Assembly (NCBI GenBank): GCA_026702755.1
Contig: JAPPBX010000031.1
Span: forward strand, 62,001 to 126,000
Length of the DNA: 64,000 nt
DNA from: Candidatus Poribacteria bacterium
GTDB lineage: Bacteria > Poribacteria > WGA-4E > WGA-3G
Direction of reading: 5' to 3'
Of this stretch, positions 8,067 to 54,796 are shown in pieces. Numbering within the stretch: the first letter of the stretch is position 1; every line of letters starts with the position of its first letter. Below the pieces are notes generated by a model. That model was not told where the DNA came from. It ran no database searches and was given only the letters and a program-made list of their open reading frames with translations. The position numbers were made by a program, and so were the translations under genes.

Positions 8067-8102
8067 CTCTTTAACTGACAACTGATAACTGGTAACTGAC
8101 AA

Positions 8103-9295: not shown

Positions 9296-9330
9296 AAACT
9301 GACAACTGACGACCGATAACCGATAACCAC
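9296..9330. repeat. AACTGACAACTGACGACCGATAACC repeat tract
   Basis: A short array of degenerate 7-10 base words of the AACTGATAAC type lies just downstream of the HEAT-repeat gene stop. It is one member of the family described in the findings. Confidence 0.6.
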
Positions 9331-9770
9331 TAAGACACGTCGCGCGATTCTATCTGCTCAACTGCCGTTTTCGCCCCTTCCCGTACGAGTGCGGAAGCAT
9401 CGTTTCGGGCAAGCTGCTTGAGTTTGTCAAGGCTAAGACTCGCCTCCAATTTACCGAGAGCAACGGCAACGAAGTAGCGGACATCCGCATCCTCGTCGTC
9501 CAACGCTTCGAGCAAGGCATTTGTGTCCATCATAGTGGCGAGGTGCCGGTCGGCATCACCAATATTAATCAACGCTTGCGCCGCGATTCGCCGAGAATGA
9601 AGGTCTCCATGACGGAGAGAGACGATCAATTCGTCATTGTCTTTCGGAATAACTGCAAGGTTATCCCAGTCACAATCCAAGCAAAACCAAGAATTACCCT
9701 CCAACTGTCGGAGGTTCGCATTTCCACAGGCGGGGCATCCCTCAAATACCTGTTGCTGACTCATGTTCAT
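9330..9770 (-). CDS. Zinc-ribbon plus HEAT-repeat protein
   Basis: This is a 146-residue protein. The N-terminus holds a zinc ribbon with CPACGN and CLDCDW (two CxxC pairs about 20 residues apart). The rest is HEAT-like helical repeats with D-x-D-V-R-Y-F-V-A-V-A-L-G-K-L and ALVREGA. HEAT repeats usually bind other proteins; the ribbon may bind nucleic acid or act structurally. A second protein with the same two modules in reversed order lies at 37881-38444. The start MNMSQQQ is the first ATG after the repeat region; its function is unknown. Confidence 0.7.
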   Translation of the reverse strand: MNMSQQQVFEGCPACGNANLRQLEGNSWFCLDCDWDNLAVIPKDNDELIVSLRHGDLHSRRIAAQALINIGDADRHLATMMDTNALLEALDDEDADVRYFVAVALGKLEASLSLDKLKQLARNDASALVREGAKTAVEQIESRDVS

Positions 9771-9822: not shown

Positions 9823-10200
9823 TTAGTCGATTGTAGGATTGGTTTCCATTTCCGGTAGTTCGCGCCAGATTTCAGGACCTTCTGGTTTGAAGTTAATGGT
9901 AGCGATAAACTGCATGCCGTGATAGAAGTTGATTTTGAATTTGCCGCCCCCGAAATTCTCTCTGAGATACGCCAATGGAGTTTCAATCAAGGGACCCATT
10001 TCGTCGGCATGATAGAACGCGAGCGGTTTAAATCGCACCGTATTGCCGACCGGTTCCTGCACGAGGAGCTGTGCCGATGTCGCAGGGAAGAGTACTTGAA
10101 ATGCTTCCCAAAGGTCAGCAACGGTGGGATTTGCGTTCCCGATTCGTTTTTTGAAGTCGTTCTCAAGATATTCCGAGAACGTGTTGAAAACCCAGTCCAT
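9823..10200 (-). CDS. Hypothetical protein, 125 residues
   Basis: The product starts MDWVFNTFSEYLENDFKKR and has a mixed helix/strand pattern with a GGGKFKINFYHG loop near residue 85. There is no signal peptide or membrane segment. I do not recognise the family. It is flanked upstream by a dense AACTGATAAC-type repeat and downstream by the zinc-ribbon/HEAT gene on the same strand. Amino acid composition looks like a real protein. Confidence 0.55.
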   Translation of the reverse strand: MDWVFNTFSEYLENDFKKRIGNANPTVADLWEAFQVLFPATSAQLLVQEPVGNTVRFKPLAFYHADEMGPLIETPLAYLRENFGGGKFKINFYHGMQFIATINFKPEGPEIWRELPEMETNPTID

Positions 10201-10202
10201 GA

Positions 10203-10340
10203 TTTAGCCATCGGTTATCGGTTATCGGTTGTCGGTAGGATATGCAGCAGTTACAATAGTTTTGCACACCACAAACTGCTCTTAACCGATAACTGACAAC
10301 TGACAACTGACAACCATTCCTCTGATAACTGATAACTATT
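10203..10340. repeat. Composite intergenic repeat with inverted arms
   Basis: The left arm reads ATCGGTTATCGGTTATCGG and continues GTTGTCGG. The right arm reads CTTAACCGATAACTGACAAC and continues with more AACTGATAACT words. The arms are reverse-complementary in type, enclosing about 60 unique bases. Confidence 0.7.
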
Positions 10341-10380
10341 ACATTGGAGCCTTCAAGAAGTCCTTCCAATCAAAATTGGG

Positions 10381-10397
10381 CAGAGGAAACTCCTCTG
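10381..10397 (-). promoter_or_regulatory. Hairpin 13 bases after an in-frame UGA (possible SECIS-like element)
   Basis: Read on the minus strand, CAGAGGA-GTT-TCCTCTG forms a perfect 7-base-pair stem with a 3-base loop that starts with G. It begins 13 bases after the TGA that closes the 137-residue PCP_red-like gene. The reading frame continues for 23 codons after that TGA. Spacing and a G at the loop start fit the loose bacterial SECIS pattern, but the match may be chance. Confidence 0.3.
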
Positions 10398-10410
10398 TGG
10401 CTTTGCATTG

Positions 10411-10824
10411 TCAAAAAGTTGCTGCTTTCTCGAAGAACTCAATATCTACACGTTCAACACCGGCTTGCCGAGCATTCTCAGCGACGCGCTGCACAACCAT
10501 CTCACGAACAAACGGAATTGGTATCCGCTTGACCCGATGCTTGACTTCCTCGGTACAAGGCACCGCAGTGTTATCAAGATAGGGACCGTCCTGAAGGGCA
10601 CCCTCATCAGGATGATCGCACGTCTCTGGCACTAACTGCTGTAAACGCATTGAGACGTAATCGGTTACCCACTGCTTAAGTCCCTCTGCCTTTTCGGTAT
10701 CAACTTGACCGACATCAGAACGTTGTCCCAACTTCTCGTTGATACTGACGAGTAGATTTTCCACACGTGTCAAGCGTTCTTCTACATCCGTAAGCCGTTC
10801 GTTTGCGTTATTTTGTTCGCTCAT
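10411..10824 (-). CDS. Small protein with coiled coil and PCP_red-like C-terminus
   Basis: This is a 137-residue protein. Residues about 8-35 form a coiled coil (ERLTDVEERLTRVENLL). The C-terminal 48 residues match the short domain known from the C-terminus of the light-independent protochlorophyllide reductase B subunit (PCP_red), with RIPIPFVREMVVQRV followed by a helix and VERVDIEFFEKA. The same domain type ends the radical SAM protein at 12553-13896. After the TGA the frame stays open for 23 codons up to a TAA at 10339-10341 and reads LPNFDWKDFLKAPM at its end, so the protein might be longer. Its role is unknown; in other proteins the domain accompanies redox or radical enzymes. Confidence 0.65.
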   Translation of the reverse strand: MSEQNNANERLTDVEERLTRVENLLVSINEKLGQRSDVGQVDTEKAEGLKQWVTDYVSMRLQQLVPETCDHPDEGALQDGPYLDNTAVPCTEEVKHRVKRIPIPFVREMVVQRVAENARQAGVERVDIEFFEKAATF

Positions 10825-10983: not shown

Positions 10984-11703
10984 CTAAACGACCCAATATT
11001 TCCAAAGATCCTCTGGAATTTCGTATTTAATCTCTTCCCGTTTTTTATGGGAATAGCGTGCAAAGATACCAAAACGAGGAATGTCTCTTATATTTCCTGA
11101 GCCGGTATGGCAGAGAAACGCATGCCACAAGACGACATCACCCGCAGCACCTACAAACTCACGAGGTCCATCCGGCGATAAATCTGAAAGTACATGCCAT
11201 CCCCAATCCTCGATATCGTAGAAACTACCATCAATTTGCTCAGGATATTGAAGGAAGTATTTGTGTGTTGAATAATGGCTTCGGGGCCAAAAAACAAACG
11301 CACCACCGCCGGGTTTGACATCATAGAGATAGGTCGTCGCACCGAGCATAAACGGACTCCAGCCACCGGGACCGTAGGCATCAATGTGTCCGCTACCGGG
11401 CATCGACCACTCTTCCTCTGGATTGGGCCACTTGACAAGCGGTGAACCGCCACCACCGGTAAATTGCCCGCCGCCGAGTTGCTCGGTAATCTCTTGCATC
11501 GCAGGCAACTGCCCAAACAGCGGTGAGAAACTGAAGTTCTGGACCACATAGTCATTGGGCCATGTCTCCGGTGTTTTTAAGCTGGAATCAAAATGTTTCC
11601 AGATCTGTTCTCGCCATTCGTCAATTATCTCGGAGTCAATAAAATTTTCAAGGATAAGGTATCCATGTTCCTGAAAAAATGCAATCTGTTCTGTTGTAAG
11701 CAT
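10984..11703 (-). CDS. Phytanoyl-CoA dioxygenase family protein
   Basis: This 239-residue Fe(II)/2-oxoglutarate oxygenase starts MLTTEQIAFFQEHGYLIL, the standard PhyH opening. HID in GHIDAYG gives the first His and Asp iron ligands, H in LWHAFLCHTG the second His, and R in RFGIFARY the 2-oxoglutarate arginine. The substrate is unknown. It is a tandem copy of the next gene, with roughly four in five residues identical by eye. They are separated by about 40 bases and likely co-transcribed. Confidence 0.87.
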   Translation of the reverse strand: MLTTEQIAFFQEHGYLILENFIDSEIIDEWREQIWKHFDSSLKTPETWPNDYVVQNFSFSPLFGQLPAMQEITEQLGGGQFTGGGGSPLVKWPNPEEEWSMPGSGHIDAYGPGGWSPFMLGATTYLYDVKPGGGAFVFWPRSHYSTHKYFLQYPEQIDGSFYDIEDWGWHVLSDLSPDGPREFVGAAGDVVLWHAFLCHTGSGNIRDIPRFGIFARYSHKKREEIKYEIPEDLWKYWVV

Positions 11704-11742: not shown

Positions 11743-12468
11743 TTAAATTGCCCAATATTTCCAAAGATCCTCTGGAATCTCGTATTTGAACTCTTCCTGT
11801 TGTTTGTGGGCATAGCGCGCAAAGAGACCAAAACGCGGAACACTTCTTATATTTTCTGATCCGGTATGGCAAAGAAACGCATGCCACAACACAACATCAC
11901 CCGCAGCACCTATAAACTCACGAGGTCCCTCTGGCGATAAATCCGAAAGCACATCCCAGTTCCAACCTTCGATATCGTAGAAACTGCCATCAATCTGCTC
12001 TGGATATTGGAGAAAGTATTTATGCGTTGAATAGTGGCTTCGGGGCCAAAAGATGAAAGCACCACCCTTGGGTTCAGCATCATAGAGATAGGTTGTTGCC
12101 CCTACCATAAAGGGACTCCAACCAGCAACAGCACCATACGCGTCGATGTGTCCATCCTTGGGCATTGACCACGCTTCTCCAGGCTTGGGCCATTTGATAA
12201 TTGGTGAGCCGCCACCGCCTGTAAAAAATTGTCCGCCACCAAGCTGCTCAGTAACCTCTTGCATCACAGGTAGATGCCCAAATAATGGTGAGAAGGTGAA
12301 GCCTTGAATTTCATAGTCGTTGGGCCACGTCTCTGGCGTTTCAAAGCTGGAACCAAAATGTTCCCAGACTTGGGCGCGCCATTCATCAACTATTTCAGGA
12401 TCGATTAAATTCTTAAGAATAAGGTATCCGTGTTCCTGAAAAAATGCTATCTGTTCCGTTGTGAGCAT
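11743..12468 (-). CDS. Phytanoyl-CoA dioxygenase family protein (tandem copy)
   Basis: This 241-residue paralogue of the preceding gene keeps the HxD, distal His and Arg motifs at the same places. The main differences are one extra residue in the GGGQFFTGGGG loop and changes around the substrate side (AVAGW in place of GPGGW). Both lie downstream of a radical SAM/SPASM gene on the same strand, so they might act on the same pathway, but nothing in the sequence proves this. Confidence 0.87.
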   Translation of the reverse strand: MLTTEQIAFFQEHGYLILKNLIDPEIVDEWRAQVWEHFGSSFETPETWPNDYEIQGFTFSPLFGHLPVMQEVTEQLGGGQFFTGGGGSPIIKWPKPGEAWSMPKDGHIDAYGAVAGWSPFMVGATTYLYDAEPKGGAFIFWPRSHYSTHKYFLQYPEQIDGSFYDIEGWNWDVLSDLSPEGPREFIGAAGDVVLWHAFLCHTGSENIRSVPRFGLFARYAHKQQEEFKYEIPEDLWKYWAI

Positions 12469-12552: not shown

Positions 12553-13896
12553 TTAGCGTTTCGGTCGGAAAGATGGGATGCCGGTTTTGTCAAATCGTTT
12601 TTTGACGGCTTGCATCAACTCAGGCGTAACCTCACGATAACCGTGTTCACGTGCATATTTCTCAACGCTTTTGATGACCATGCCACGCGCAAATGACGGC
12701 ACGCGCTTCAACCGCTTTTCTGCTGCCTTGCTCCACTGCAAATCATAATCGGTTTCGGTTGCAAAAGCAATCTTTTTCTCTATTTGAACAGGAGGTGCGT
12801 TGTGTTGTCCGGGCTGATACTCACACGACGCATCTTCAGCGAGGTAGTTATTGGTAGTCGCATAGGCTCGCGCACGGCAACCGCCGCACACCTCTTTGAA
12901 TTCACAAACCCCGCACTTTCCTTCAAGCAGATCTCGATTTCGTAAGTCCTGAAAGGTTTCCGATTCATTCCAGAGTTTGACAAAACTCTCCTCCTTGAGG
13001 TTACCGACGCTAACAGGTAGATAGGGACAAGGCGTCAGTTCACCTTCAGGTGTGATACGGCAGTAGTAGATACCACACGGACAGGTCCCACTCGGATATC
13101 CCTGAAGGAAAGCAGAGTCGGATTGCTGTTCATAGATAACACGTTTATAATGCGGTGCGCATTTCGCTGCGATGAGCATCTTCCCAGCATAAGCTGCTTG
13201 CAACTCGAAAAACGTTTCAAACGCCTTTTCATACTGCTCAGGCGTAATGTCCATTACTGTCTTACCCCTTCCCGTCCGGACAAGAAAATAGAGATTTAGC
13301 ACCTTCGCACCGAGTTGATACGCGAATTCTACAATCTTCGGAATTTCGTCGTAATTCCACTGTGTCACGGAGGTTTGAACGAGGAAATCGAGTTGGGCAC
13401 GTTTGAGTGCCTCTACACCGTTCATCGTTGCTTTCCACGCGCCTTCCATACCCCGAAACCGATCATGGTTTGTGGGTTGAACAGAGTCGAGACTGATGCC
13501 CGCACCGGTAACACCGTGCTGTTGCATTTTCTCAACGACGCTATCGTTCAACAGCACACCGTTCGTGCCCATGACAACAAGAAACCCGGTATCGGAGGCA
13601 TACTTTGATATCTCCAAGATATCCGGGCGTAATAAGGGTTCCCCACCGGTGAGAATAAGGAGGATGTGTGGATTGATTTCGGCGATTTCATCGATGACGC
13701 GAAAACATTGTGATTGGCTTAGTTCCGCATCCCTGGAATATTCCTGTGAACCTTGAATATCGGACACTTGAAAGGTTCCATCCGCTAATTCGTTTGTGTC
13801 AACAAAGCCTGCGGGGAGATAACAGTGTGTGCATTTCAGATTACATAATCGGGTGATATTCCACGAAACTGCCTGAACTTTGGTATTTTGCATCTT
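12553..13896 (-). CDS. Radical SAM/SPASM protein with PCP_red-like C-terminus
   Basis: This is a 447-residue radical SAM enzyme. CNLKCTHC near the N-terminus binds the 4Fe-4S cluster and SAM. The SPASM region carries CPCGIYYC, a C-P-Y-L segment and a CGVCEFKEVCGGC cluster, for additional iron-sulfur centres. The order and length resemble the NirJ/AhbC/AhbD and peptide-modifying groups. The last 60 residues are a PCP_red-like domain (RLKRVPSFARGMVIKSV). The ATG at 13896, 29 bases after the TPR gene stop, is preferred over a TTG at 13959, because the radical SAM homology starts just after it. Substrate unknown. No precursor peptide gene is visible next to it. Confidence 0.82.
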   Translation of the reverse strand, partial: KMQNTKVQAVSWNITRLCNLKCTHCYLPAGFVDTNELADGTFQVSDIQGSQEYSRDAELSQSQCFRVIDEIAEINPHILLILTGGEPLLRPDILEISKYASDTGFLVVMGTNGVLLNDSVVEKMQQHGVTGAGISLDSVQPTNHDRFRGMEGAWKATMNGVEALKRAQLDFLVQTSVTQWNYDEIPKIVEFAYQLGAKVLNLYFLVRTGRGKTVMDITPEQYEKAFETFFELQAAYAGKMLIAAKCAPHYKRVIYEQQSDSAFLQGYPSGTCPCGIYYCRITPEGELTPCPYLPVSVGNLKEESFVKLWNESETFQDLRNRDLLEGKCGVCEFKEVCGGCRARAYATTNNYLAEDASCEYQPGQHNAPPVQIEKKIAFATETDYDLQWSKAAEKRLKRVPSFARGMVIKSVEKYAREHGYREVTPELMQAVKKRFDKTGIPSFRPKR

Positions 13897-13924
13897 TTTG
13901 AAAGTATTTTCGCTCTGCACCTGT

Positions 13925-14716
13925 CTATAGCGGGACAGATGGAATGGTATCCGTCTCAAGTGTTTTAGCGACCGTCAAGTCAGCATCGGCTTTTTCCGTC
14001 TCTTTAAGGTGTCGCCAGGCTTCGCCGCGGCTGCGATAGGCTTCAGCATGCTCAGGATCGCGTTGGATGACCTGGTTATAGTCAGCGATGGCTTTGGCAT
14101 ACTCAGCATTTTTAGCGTAAGCTACACCTCGTCTGTAATAAACTTTAGGGTACTCTGGCTTGAGTTCTATCGCCGTGTTATAGTCAGCAATGGCTTTGGC
14201 ATGCTCACCGATGTAACTATAGGCGTTACCACGCCTGATGTAGTCCTCAACTATTTTCGGATTGAGTCTCAAGCTTGCTGTATAAAGCTTAATGTTTTCT
14301 TCCGCTTCTTCTCGGTTCTCGATCCGGTCAAGCGGATAACCGCCGTTCAGTTCTTGACATTGCCGTAGAAAGTTCATCGACCCAGCAACTCCAAGTGTTT
14401 TGGTAAGGACGCGCGCCCCAATTTCATAGATTTCGAGGTCTGTCATTTTCTGGATTTCGCTCTGGCTCGCTGCGAATCGATGGGCGCGGGCGCGTTCTTC
14501 AGCTTCCCTGGTGGACTCACGTTCGTGGATGTGTTTGGCGATGGTGTCAATATCTGGAAGATTCGCTAACAATTGGTGACGATCAACAGAGTAATCACCT
14601 GTACCCGGTTGGCATTGCCGGATAAACCACTGCGTTTTGGCAGTACCAAGTTTATTTATCAGGGCTTTCATCCCAAGTTCATAAATTTCACTATCGGTCA
14701 TTTCCAATATGTTCAT
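13925..14716 (-). CDS. TPR protein with duplicated antitoxin-like domain
   Basis: This is a 263-residue protein. Residues 5-60 and about 75-125 are two copies of a domain with MTDxEIYExG, then LG-x6-F-x-RQCQ and G-x-Y-x-x-DR. I recall single-domain versions encoded beside PIN genes. Three TPR units follow (about 135-240), for example AIADYNTAIELKPEY. The start MNILEMTDSE is chosen because GAGG lies just upstream and homology begins there. It overlaps the 3' end of the PIN gene by 26 bases, so translation is probably coupled. An antitoxin or adaptor role is inferred from the gene order. Confidence 0.65.
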   Translation of the reverse strand: MNILEMTDSEIYELGMKALINKLGTAKTQWFIRQCQPGTGDYSVDRHQLLANLPDIDTIAKHIHERESTREAEERARAHRFAASQSEIQKMTDLEIYEIGARVLTKTLGVAGSMNFLRQCQELNGGYPLDRIENREEAEENIKLYTASLRLNPKIVEDYIRRGNAYSYIGEHAKAIADYNTAIELKPEYPKVYYRRGVAYAKNAEYAKAIADYNQVIQRDPEHAEAYRSRGEAWRHLKETEKADADLTVAKTLETDTIPSVPL

Positions 14717-15259: not shown

Positions 15260-15739
15260 CTATAGTAGCAGTGCAAGTGCGAAAACGATTACGCCTGCTA
15301 TCAACATCAAGCCTCTCCACACATTGATATACGGGCTTGGGTTGCGATATGTTTTGTCGTCAGGCGGGATTACCTCAAGGTGTCGTCGATAGAGTGAACT
15401 GTACAGTCCCCAAAAGAGTGTCATTACACCAAACGCCGCAAGTTTTGCGACGAACGTTAGCATATAGGCTTTGAAATCGTAATTTTCGTTCTGCGCCGCG
15501 AAAAACCCGTTATTCCATGCAACAATAAAGAATACCATCGCACCCGTTATCAGGAGTATATGAATCATCAATCGTATCCAGGTGCGAAAACGGTTGTGAA
15601 CCGCCAAAAGGCTTTGCGGTGGCAAACTTTGCTGCAGGATTGGCATCGCGATGAATGTAGAAAAGATTACGCCTCCGAACCAGACTATTGCCGCTATTAG
15701 GTGGACGCTTCGGATGAAAAGTTCTACGCTTTCCCGCAT
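15260..15739 (-). CDS. Four-helix membrane protein, CopD-like
   Basis: This 159-residue protein has four predicted membrane helices. It starts with VHLIAAIVWFGGVIFSTFIA, a pattern seen in CopD-like and related small membrane proteins with a conserved His and WxGG. A histidine in the second helix (LMIHILLITGA) could be a haem or metal ligand. It is flanked by unrelated genes. The family call is moderate; the role may be copper handling or an unspecified membrane function. Confidence 0.6.
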   Translation of the reverse strand: MRESVELFIRSVHLIAAIVWFGGVIFSTFIAMPILQQSLPPQSLLAVHNRFRTWIRLMIHILLITGAMVFFIVAWNNGFFAAQNENYDFKAYMLTFVAKLAAFGVMTLFWGLYSSLYRRHLEVIPPDDKTYRNPSPYINVWRGLMLIAGVIVFALALLL

Positions 15740-22588: not shown

Positions 22589-22688
22589 TTTATTAGTTAT
22601 CAGTTATCGGTTATCAGTTGTCGGTTAAAGAGGTTCTGACTCATACTAAGTATTTCTTTTTAACCGACGACTGACAATTACTGACTAC
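22589..22688. repeat. Composite intergenic repeat with inverted arms
   Basis: The left arm is TTAGTTATCAGTTATCGG and on to GTTGTCGG, and the right arm TTAACCGACGACTGACAAT. It lies between the divergent rsmI and PorV-like genes. Confidence 0.7.
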
Positions 22689-22732
22689 CACTCCCCTTGC
22701 TATATTGGGCGTTCCATGCTAAATTAACGACA

Positions 22733-23557
22733 ATGAAAACGACCTACGCTATCATAAGTCTTCTGTGGTTGATAACGCCAGTATGTGCCAAGACGGAACT
22801 CCCATTTGAATCGACACGCCCGCTCTACGTTGGGGCACGGGCTTTAGGTATGGGCAATGCCTTCACCGCTGTCGCCGACGATGCCAGTGCAGGTTTTTGG
22901 AACCCTGCCGGACTAATTCAGTGGCAAGGTGTGAAACTCTTCGCGGTCAATAAGTTTCATGACCGAAGTGAGTACCGATTTGACCCAAAAGGGATCGGCT
23001 ATAGTTACCGCGGCTATAGCCTTTTTTGGGGAAACAAAATCGCGATCGGTGTTGACAGTGGCGTTCCTGATTTCAACTATTATGGGATCGCTCGCCAACT
23101 CGGTCCGTATGCTGCAGCCGGATTGAGTCTTAAGTTCAAGCGAAGACACCCTTCCAATGTCTATCAATTTTTCGGCTACGAGACGACGTACGATCTCGGA
23201 GTCCTTTTCAAACCACACCCAGATTTCAAATTTGGGTGTCTCGCTCAGAATCTGGAGGGCTTTGGTATTCAATGGCTGACGCTCGGTATCGCCTATCGTT
23301 ACGCGGAACACTGGTTGAAAAGCGCGCCTTGCGAATTTTCAGTCGATGTCGCTGTCCCCACAGCAGGCGAAACACCTGAATTATACATCGGTGCGGAGTG
23401 GCATCCCCTCCAAGTACTCCACATCCGTCTCGGTAGTTCAAACGGTGTCTTGACAACCGGAATAGGCATTGCGTGGAAAGGGGTTGGTATCAACTACGCC
23501 CGAATTTTTGAGAAGCCCTCCACATCGGATTTTATTGGGATAACCATCAGTCTTTAG
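22733..23557 (+). CDS. PorV/PorQ-like outer-membrane barrel protein
   Basis: This 274-residue protein has a signal peptide (MKTTYAIISLLWLITPVCA). The mature part begins with the family block VGARALGMGNAFTAVADD, ASAGFWNPAGL, shared by PorV, PorQ and UPF0164 proteins. The remaining sequence shows alternating strands with C-terminal aromatic and hydrophobic residues typical of a beta-barrel (IGITISL). PorV acts in type IX secretion in Bacteroidota; whether that holds here is unknown. The ATG at 22733 is preferred over one at 22697 because the signal peptide starts there. Confidence 0.75.
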   Translation: MKTTYAIISLLWLITPVCAKTELPFESTRPLYVGARALGMGNAFTAVADDASAGFWNPAGLIQWQGVKLFAVNKFHDRSEYRFDPKGIGYSYRGYSLFWGNKIAIGVDSGVPDFNYYGIARQLGPYAAAGLSLKFKRRHPSNVYQFFGYETTYDLGVLFKPHPDFKFGCLAQNLEGFGIQWLTLGIAYRYAEHWLKSAPCEFSVDVAVPTAGETPELYIGAEWHPLQVLHIRLGSSNGVLTTGIGIAWKGVGINYARIFEKPSTSDFIGITISL

Positions 23558-23637
23558 TAGTCAGTTATCAGTTAAGATGTGCTACACCCAAGTCCAGGTC
23601 TCTTTTAACTGACAACCGATAACTGACAACTGAAAAC
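23557..23637. repeat. Composite intergenic repeat with inverted arms
   Basis: AGTCAGTTATCAGTTAAG is paired with TTTTAACTGACAACCGATAA and further AACTGA words, between the convergent PorV-like and HtrA-like genes. Confidence 0.7.
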
Positions 23638-30819: not shown

Positions 30820-30958
30820 TTAGTTGTCAGTTACCAGTTTTCAGTTTTCAGTTAAGGCACCCATTTAATGGAATCCGTTTGATATACAGAAAGTCCATCT
30901 TAACTGACTACTGAAAGGCTAACCTGCGGAGCAGGTTAGCCGAACTGACAACTGATAA
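30820..30958. repeat. Composite intergenic repeat with a GC-rich hairpin
   Basis: The left arm (TTAGTTGTCAGTTACCAG and more) and the right arm (CGAACTGACAACTGATAACT) enclose a perfect hairpin, GGCTAACCTGC-GGA-GCAGGTTAGCC, at 30917-30941. The hairpin is followed by CGAACT, as in the copies at 4694 and 54746, although the stem sequence differs. Confidence 0.7.
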
Positions 30959-54647: not shown

Positions 54648-54796
54648 TGGCTATCAGTTTTCAGAGGAATAGTTGTCAGTACTCAGTTGTCAGTTATCAG
54701 TTAATAGGTTTTGGAATCATCCCAATTCTCTTTCTGAAAACTGAAGGTTTTTCGCAGAAAAACCGAACTAATAACTGATGACTGATAACTATATAA
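54648..54796. repeat. Composite intergenic repeat with hairpin
   Basis: The left arm (TTATCAGTTAATAGGTTTTG) and the right arm (AACTAATAACTGATGACTG) bracket the hairpin GGTTTTT-CGCAG-AAAAACC at 54746-54764, identical to that at 4694. Confidence 0.7.

Follow-up and report, generated by a model that had tools for sequence, protein, structure and literature searches.

The selenoproteins of prokaryotes were catalogued in 2026 as 119 families and subfamilies, in a table that includes the families of Haft and Tolstoy 2025 (PMC13188914). In the accompanying model, the bacterial SECIS element (bSECIS) is a hairpin with a stem of 4–16 bp and a loop of 3–9 nt, has G in the first two loop positions, lies 16–37 nt from the UGA and folds with an MFE of −7.5 or lower (PMC13188914). 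SelA and SelB are reported to be found together in the majority of sponge-symbiont bins, across various phyla, and to be lacking in most related references (PMC5649159).

We analyzed a window of 64,000 nucleotides of a Candidatus Poribacteria genome (GCA_026702755.1, contig JAPPBX010000031.1, positions 62,001–126,000), in which a short minus-strand reading frame ends at a TGA followed by a further open stretch. We read this UGA (10413–10411) as a selenocysteine codon, with a probability of roughly 0.93 judged from sequence comparison, because the TGA is kept among relatives, the tail behind it is conserved as protein and the arms of a hairpin just downstream are synonymously frozen. The features of the gene, in window coordinates, are as follows.

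10342–10824, minus strand: candidate selenoprotein gene, 161 codons from ATG (10824) to TAA (10342), defined by translation with TGA as U and by 68 homologues with in-frame TGA
10612–10620, minus strand: C69-x-H71, invariant
10555–10557, minus strand: C90, start of the PCP_red-like segment, invariant
10423–10554, minus strand: PCP_red-like segment, residues 91–134 (Pfam PF08369, 28.7 bits, cut-off 32.5)
10411–10413, minus strand: probable UGA selenocysteine codon (U138), TGA at this site in all 48 sequences read and all 68 genomes, with a terminal stop that varies among TAA, TAG and TGA
10405–10407, minus strand: C140, putative resolving Cys or ligand of the U-x-C pair, invariant
10381–10397, minus strand: SECIS-like hairpin, 7-bp stem with a GUU loop starting 20 nt after the UGA, identified by folding and synonymous freeze
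10345–10410, minus strand: conserved C-terminal tail, Q-C-K-A-T-E-E-F-P-L-P-x-F-x-W-x-D-F-L

The UGA codon, its hairpin and the decoding machinery

Read conventionally, the frame (10824–10411) encodes 137 amino acids and stops at the TGA. Beyond it the frame remains open for 23 codons, reads QCKATEEFPLPNFDWKDFLKAPM and ends with TAA at 10344–10342 on the minus strand, as a first-pass annotation made from the letters of the window had described in raising possible UGA readthrough; the peptide ATEEFPLPNFDWK is an example spanning or following U138. That annotation had cautioned that 23 open codons are not rare, and the window bears this out: 8 of its 17 ORFs that have at least 100 codons, an ATG start and a TGA end carry a tail open for at least 23 codons, so openness by itself is ordinary. 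An open tail together with a bSECIS-like hairpin is found in one of the 17, namely the ORF described here.

The hairpin, CAGAGGA-GTT-TCCTCTG, is the perfect 7-bp stem with a G-first three-base loop that had been pointed out 13 nt past the TGA. Folding gives it about −8.5 kcal/mol, and it agrees with the bSECIS model in geometry and energy (PMC13188914), as do TTC variants found in relatives, where the stem is 6 bp and AGUUC stands at 19 nt. Of 48 sequences, 46 have a core that folds at −8 to −9.6 kcal/mol; the other two, at −6.7, both come from family f2 (one of three families of the order, f1–f3, discussed below). When the same tail was redrawn with synonymous codons, a stem of at least 7 bp arose in about 2% of cases. 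The four stem-arm codons, +6, +7, +9 and +10 (GAG, GAG, CCT and CTG), have accumulated one third-position change in total, compared with a mean of 10.4 changes per codon across conserved body codons; in 100,000 random draws of four body codons, no total came out this low. Codons flanking the stem vary freely (+11 Pro, 15 changes). Covariation is scarce because the stem is nearly invariant, and the A-U to G-U changes that do occur in it preserve pairing. This freeze, read from codon changes among relatives, is what an RNA hairpin recognized by SelB would require.

The machinery for selenocysteine is complete in the window's genome, where selA, selB and selC had been named as genes to look for and selD was found as well: SelA (E 7.5e-157), SelB, tRNA-Sec and SelD are all present, and SelB (351 bits) adjoins tRNA-Sec (78 bits, anticodon TCA) on contig C86. 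A UGA also interrupts the SelD gene, at its catalytic site, ...KCAG-U-ASKLAPGEL (L103, G000:C96:159939-160862), which gives this genome an internal positive control for UGA decoding. Of the phylum's 85 genomes, 73 have a detected SelA and 72 a detected tRNA-Sec, and at least one of the two was detected in 65 of the 68 that carry the candidate gene. The remaining three (G030, G033 and G062) have the gene with SelA and tRNA-Sec undetected; all are multi-contig assemblies, and the missing genes are probably assembly gaps. As a separate observation, the hairpin of the SelD gene matches the bSECIS geometry weakly.

Conservation of the gene and competing readings of the UGA

When genome contigs were scanned, 36 relatives came up; their records all name Poribacteria, and every one shares the TGA codon and the tail. 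A profile search, confirmed with a wider profile, extended the set to 68 of 85 phylum genomes, with the TGA and a near-identical tail kept in every one. The set spans families f1, f2 and f3 of the order, and the f2 and f3 proteins are about 66–70% identical to the window protein. In the 48 sequences read, the Sec site is always TGA and the terminal stop is TAA in 30, TAG in 9 and TGA in 9. Mapped on a tree built from the gene body, changes in tail codons +1 to +19 number 26 at the first two positions together and 82 at the third; judged by this codon pattern, the tail is under protein-level purifying selection. Homologues that end at the TGA without the tail, which would have spoken for a stop, are absent from the 68 genomes with the gene. 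No relative appeared in a scan of viral contigs with the alignment or in a tblastn search of plasmids. Two sets of matches were set aside: a weak one in G012 (residues 116–147, with TGA) is antisense to a nadD-like gene, and copies in G056 with TAA and TAG both sit at contig ends and were judged assembly artefacts.

Exchange of Sec and Cys among homologues is the classic proof of a selenoprotein; it is the usual support and no requirement. A form with Cys at the Sec position was found in none of the 85 Poribacteria genomes, in a search whose sensitivity was low for other phyla. Such a form may exist outside Poribacteria.

Two readings of the UGA compete with selenocysteine. If the TGA were a real stop, the tail would be chance or the remnant of a nonsense change, an idea to which the frequency of 23-codon open tails in the window lends some initial plausibility. 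The tail's amino acids are, however, conserved in three or more families of the order, most changes falling at third positions, and the purifying selection on the tail together with the frozen arms exclude the recent nonsense change or chance that the first-pass annotation had listed as alternatives, save for a vanishingly small residue of doubt. Low-rate read-through by a near-cognate tRNA, which would place Trp or another residue at the site, fares little better. A C after UGA makes the stop leaky, and this gene has that context; protein-level selection on the tail would be expected whether Sec or another residue were inserted. Read-through nevertheless leaves unexplained why the hairpin arms are frozen within the SelB window, why TGA has become neither TAA, TAG nor a sense codon in 68 genomes, and why the site has U-x-C geometry in a genome that makes Sec; we consider it very improbable. 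On the selenocysteine reading, the nearby downstream hairpin would direct SelB and tRNA-Sec to insert selenocysteine at position 138 and so yield a 161-residue protein with a Sec-Gln-Cys pair right after the PCP_red-like segment. Without selenium, the product would presumably be a 137-residue form that lacks the pair.

Gene neighbourhood and possible function

The candidate selenoprotein consists of an N-terminal coiled-coil-type helix, a C-x-H motif (C69, H71), C90, the PCP_red-like segment, U138-Q-C140 and the tail. In 28 aligned sequences each protein has exactly four Cys or Sec residues, every one invariant. The gene had been described as encoding a PCP_red protein; the resemblance at residues 91–134 stands, whereas the score falls below the family cut-off, leaving a remote resemblance rather than membership. 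Two structure predictions were poor (pLDDT 46.5 and 59.7) and the models unsuitable for a fold search, so structure does not inform function; among solved structures no relatives were found. The C69/C90/U138/C140 pattern suggests, from residue conservation, a redox relay or a metal site, without telling which.

Around the gene lie the following.

15260–15739, minus strand: CopD-like membrane protein, a relative of which lies directly upstream of the radical-SAM gene in f2 and f3
12553–13959, minus strand: putative partner radical-SAM/SPASM gene with C-terminal PCP_red (Pfam and NCBIfam; nearest models AhbD and NirJ, below cut-offs); true start probably near 13884
9823–10200, minus strand: conserved downstream gene, 125 aa, MDWVFNTFSEYL... 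(MDWV gene), no known family
9330–9770, minus strand: conserved downstream gene with HEAT repeats

Of the 85 genomes, 68 carry both the radical-SAM orthologue and the candidate selenoprotein, and the other 17 have neither. In f2 and f3 the radical-SAM gene is directly upstream of the selenoprotein gene, in the order Mrp/NUBPL ATPase, zinc-ribbon-like/PCP_red protein, CopD-like protein, radical-SAM enzyme, selenoprotein, and several of these genomes continue from the selenoprotein gene into the MDWV gene, HEAT and DUF420. Mrp is an Fe-S carrier. In f1 the radical-SAM and selenoprotein genes are separated by one or two PhyH genes, and Mrp and a second PCP_red protein are found elsewhere (C11), by eye near cytochrome-oxidase-type genes. 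Divergent radical-SAM homologues in G007, G004 and G024 have no selenoprotein homologue beside them and were set aside. The partner scores best with AhbD and NirJ2. Because the window's genome has ferrochelatase, ordinary heme b synthesis is not an obvious role for it.

Several observations concern the surroundings. The tandem PhyH (phytanoyl-CoA dioxygenase-like) genes of the window, at 10984–11703 and 11743–12468, vary in copy number by species, with none at this place in f2 and f3. The MDWVFNTFSEYL gene is about 78–94% identical among relatives. PCP_red also occurs in UspA-, radical-SAM- and zinc-ribbon-like proteins of the window's genome: on contig C11, a universal stress protein (L097, 8926–10833) has three PCP_red domains and a rubredoxin-like segment, and the same contig carries Mrp and the zinc-ribbon-like PCP_red protein, so that PCP_red looks like a shared module. 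A dispersed, apparently intergenic repeat (ACTGACAACTGA / GATAACTGATAACT) recurs at 8074–8085, 9298–9309, 10292–10310, 22614–23633, 30820–30955 and 54683–54701, with 14 near-matches versus 0.44 expected in the window; in many f1 relatives, repeats of a similar kind come after the stop codon of the selenoprotein gene.

From the neighbourhood and the invariant residues, it is conceivable, at somewhat less than even odds, that the selenoprotein is a redox or metal partner of the radical-SAM enzyme. U138-x-C140, together with C69, C90 and the invariant H71, would then form a thiol/selenol redox centre or a metal site, and the protein might serve the adjacent radical-SAM/SPASM/PCP_red enzyme as an electron, thiol or metal partner, in what the gene order suggests is a metal- or tetrapyrrole-cofactor module. 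More speculatively, Sec could be a metal ligand or catalytic group in an undescribed cofactor- or peptide-maturation system of Poribacteria, whose radical-SAM enzyme would work only with the Sec protein, which would help to explain why these sponge-associated bacteria retain Sec; we regard this extension as doubtful.

The selenoprotein might instead be a substrate of the radical-SAM/SPASM enzyme, modified in the conserved tail around U-x-C. Some SPASM enzymes are peptide maturases, a small protein encoded near a radical-SAM/SPASM enzyme often undergoes modification, and here a small protein with a near-invariant, apparently disordered tail lies next to such an enzyme in the same 68 genomes; SbtM, a selenopeptide-modifying enzyme family, is also among the partner's weaker matches. 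The best models, AhbD and NirJ2, nonetheless act on tetrapyrrole side chains and are not peptide maturases, and conservation extends beyond the tail to the whole protein, with C69 and C90 invariant too, which makes a substrate role unlikely.

Relation to known selenoprotein and PCP_red systems

Neither a PCP_red selenoprotein nor a recognizable counterpart occurs among the 119 families and subfamilies tabulated in the catalogue (PMC13188914). No NCBIfam model matches the protein, and we found no literature linking Poribacteria or PCP_red with selenoproteins. We conclude that this is a new selenoprotein family, as seen from a search concentrated on Poribacteria, and that its UGA/bSECIS decoding is itself of a known type. 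The family escapes methods based on homology or on Cys swaps, since annotation ordinarily ends the gene at the UGA and a Cys form did not turn up; the phylum's gene models probably stop short at this codon. As a conserved Sec client, the protein is encoded in 68 of the 85 Poribacteria genomes, each time accompanied by one radical-SAM gene.

The gene shares with known bSECIS/SelB-decoded selenoproteins (FdhA, SelD, Trx-like) an in-frame UGA, a hairpin 16–37 nt downstream with an early loop G, and a full selABCD set, and differs from known bacterial selenoproteins in its PCP_red resemblance, no catalogued member having that domain. The U-x-C spacing recalls the SO_0444 Cu/Zn efflux transporter and Thioredoxin-like Sec.2 (PMC13188914), whereas the new protein matches neither a transporter nor a thioredoxin family. 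Residues 91–134 align with PCP_red (PF08369, the C-terminus of BchB) at a sub-threshold 28.7 bits, but the protein has Cys90 at the start of the segment and, after it, a U-x-C tail foreign to that domain. The partner, for its part, resembles AhbD and NirJ in combining radical SAM and SPASM, and these are its best models (TIGR04545 and TIGR04055, 318 and 304 bits). It scores well under their 500-bit cut-offs (318.5 and 326.1 versus 500 for TIGR04545, the AhbD heme b synthase model), and it differs from both in carrying an extra C-terminal PCP_red.
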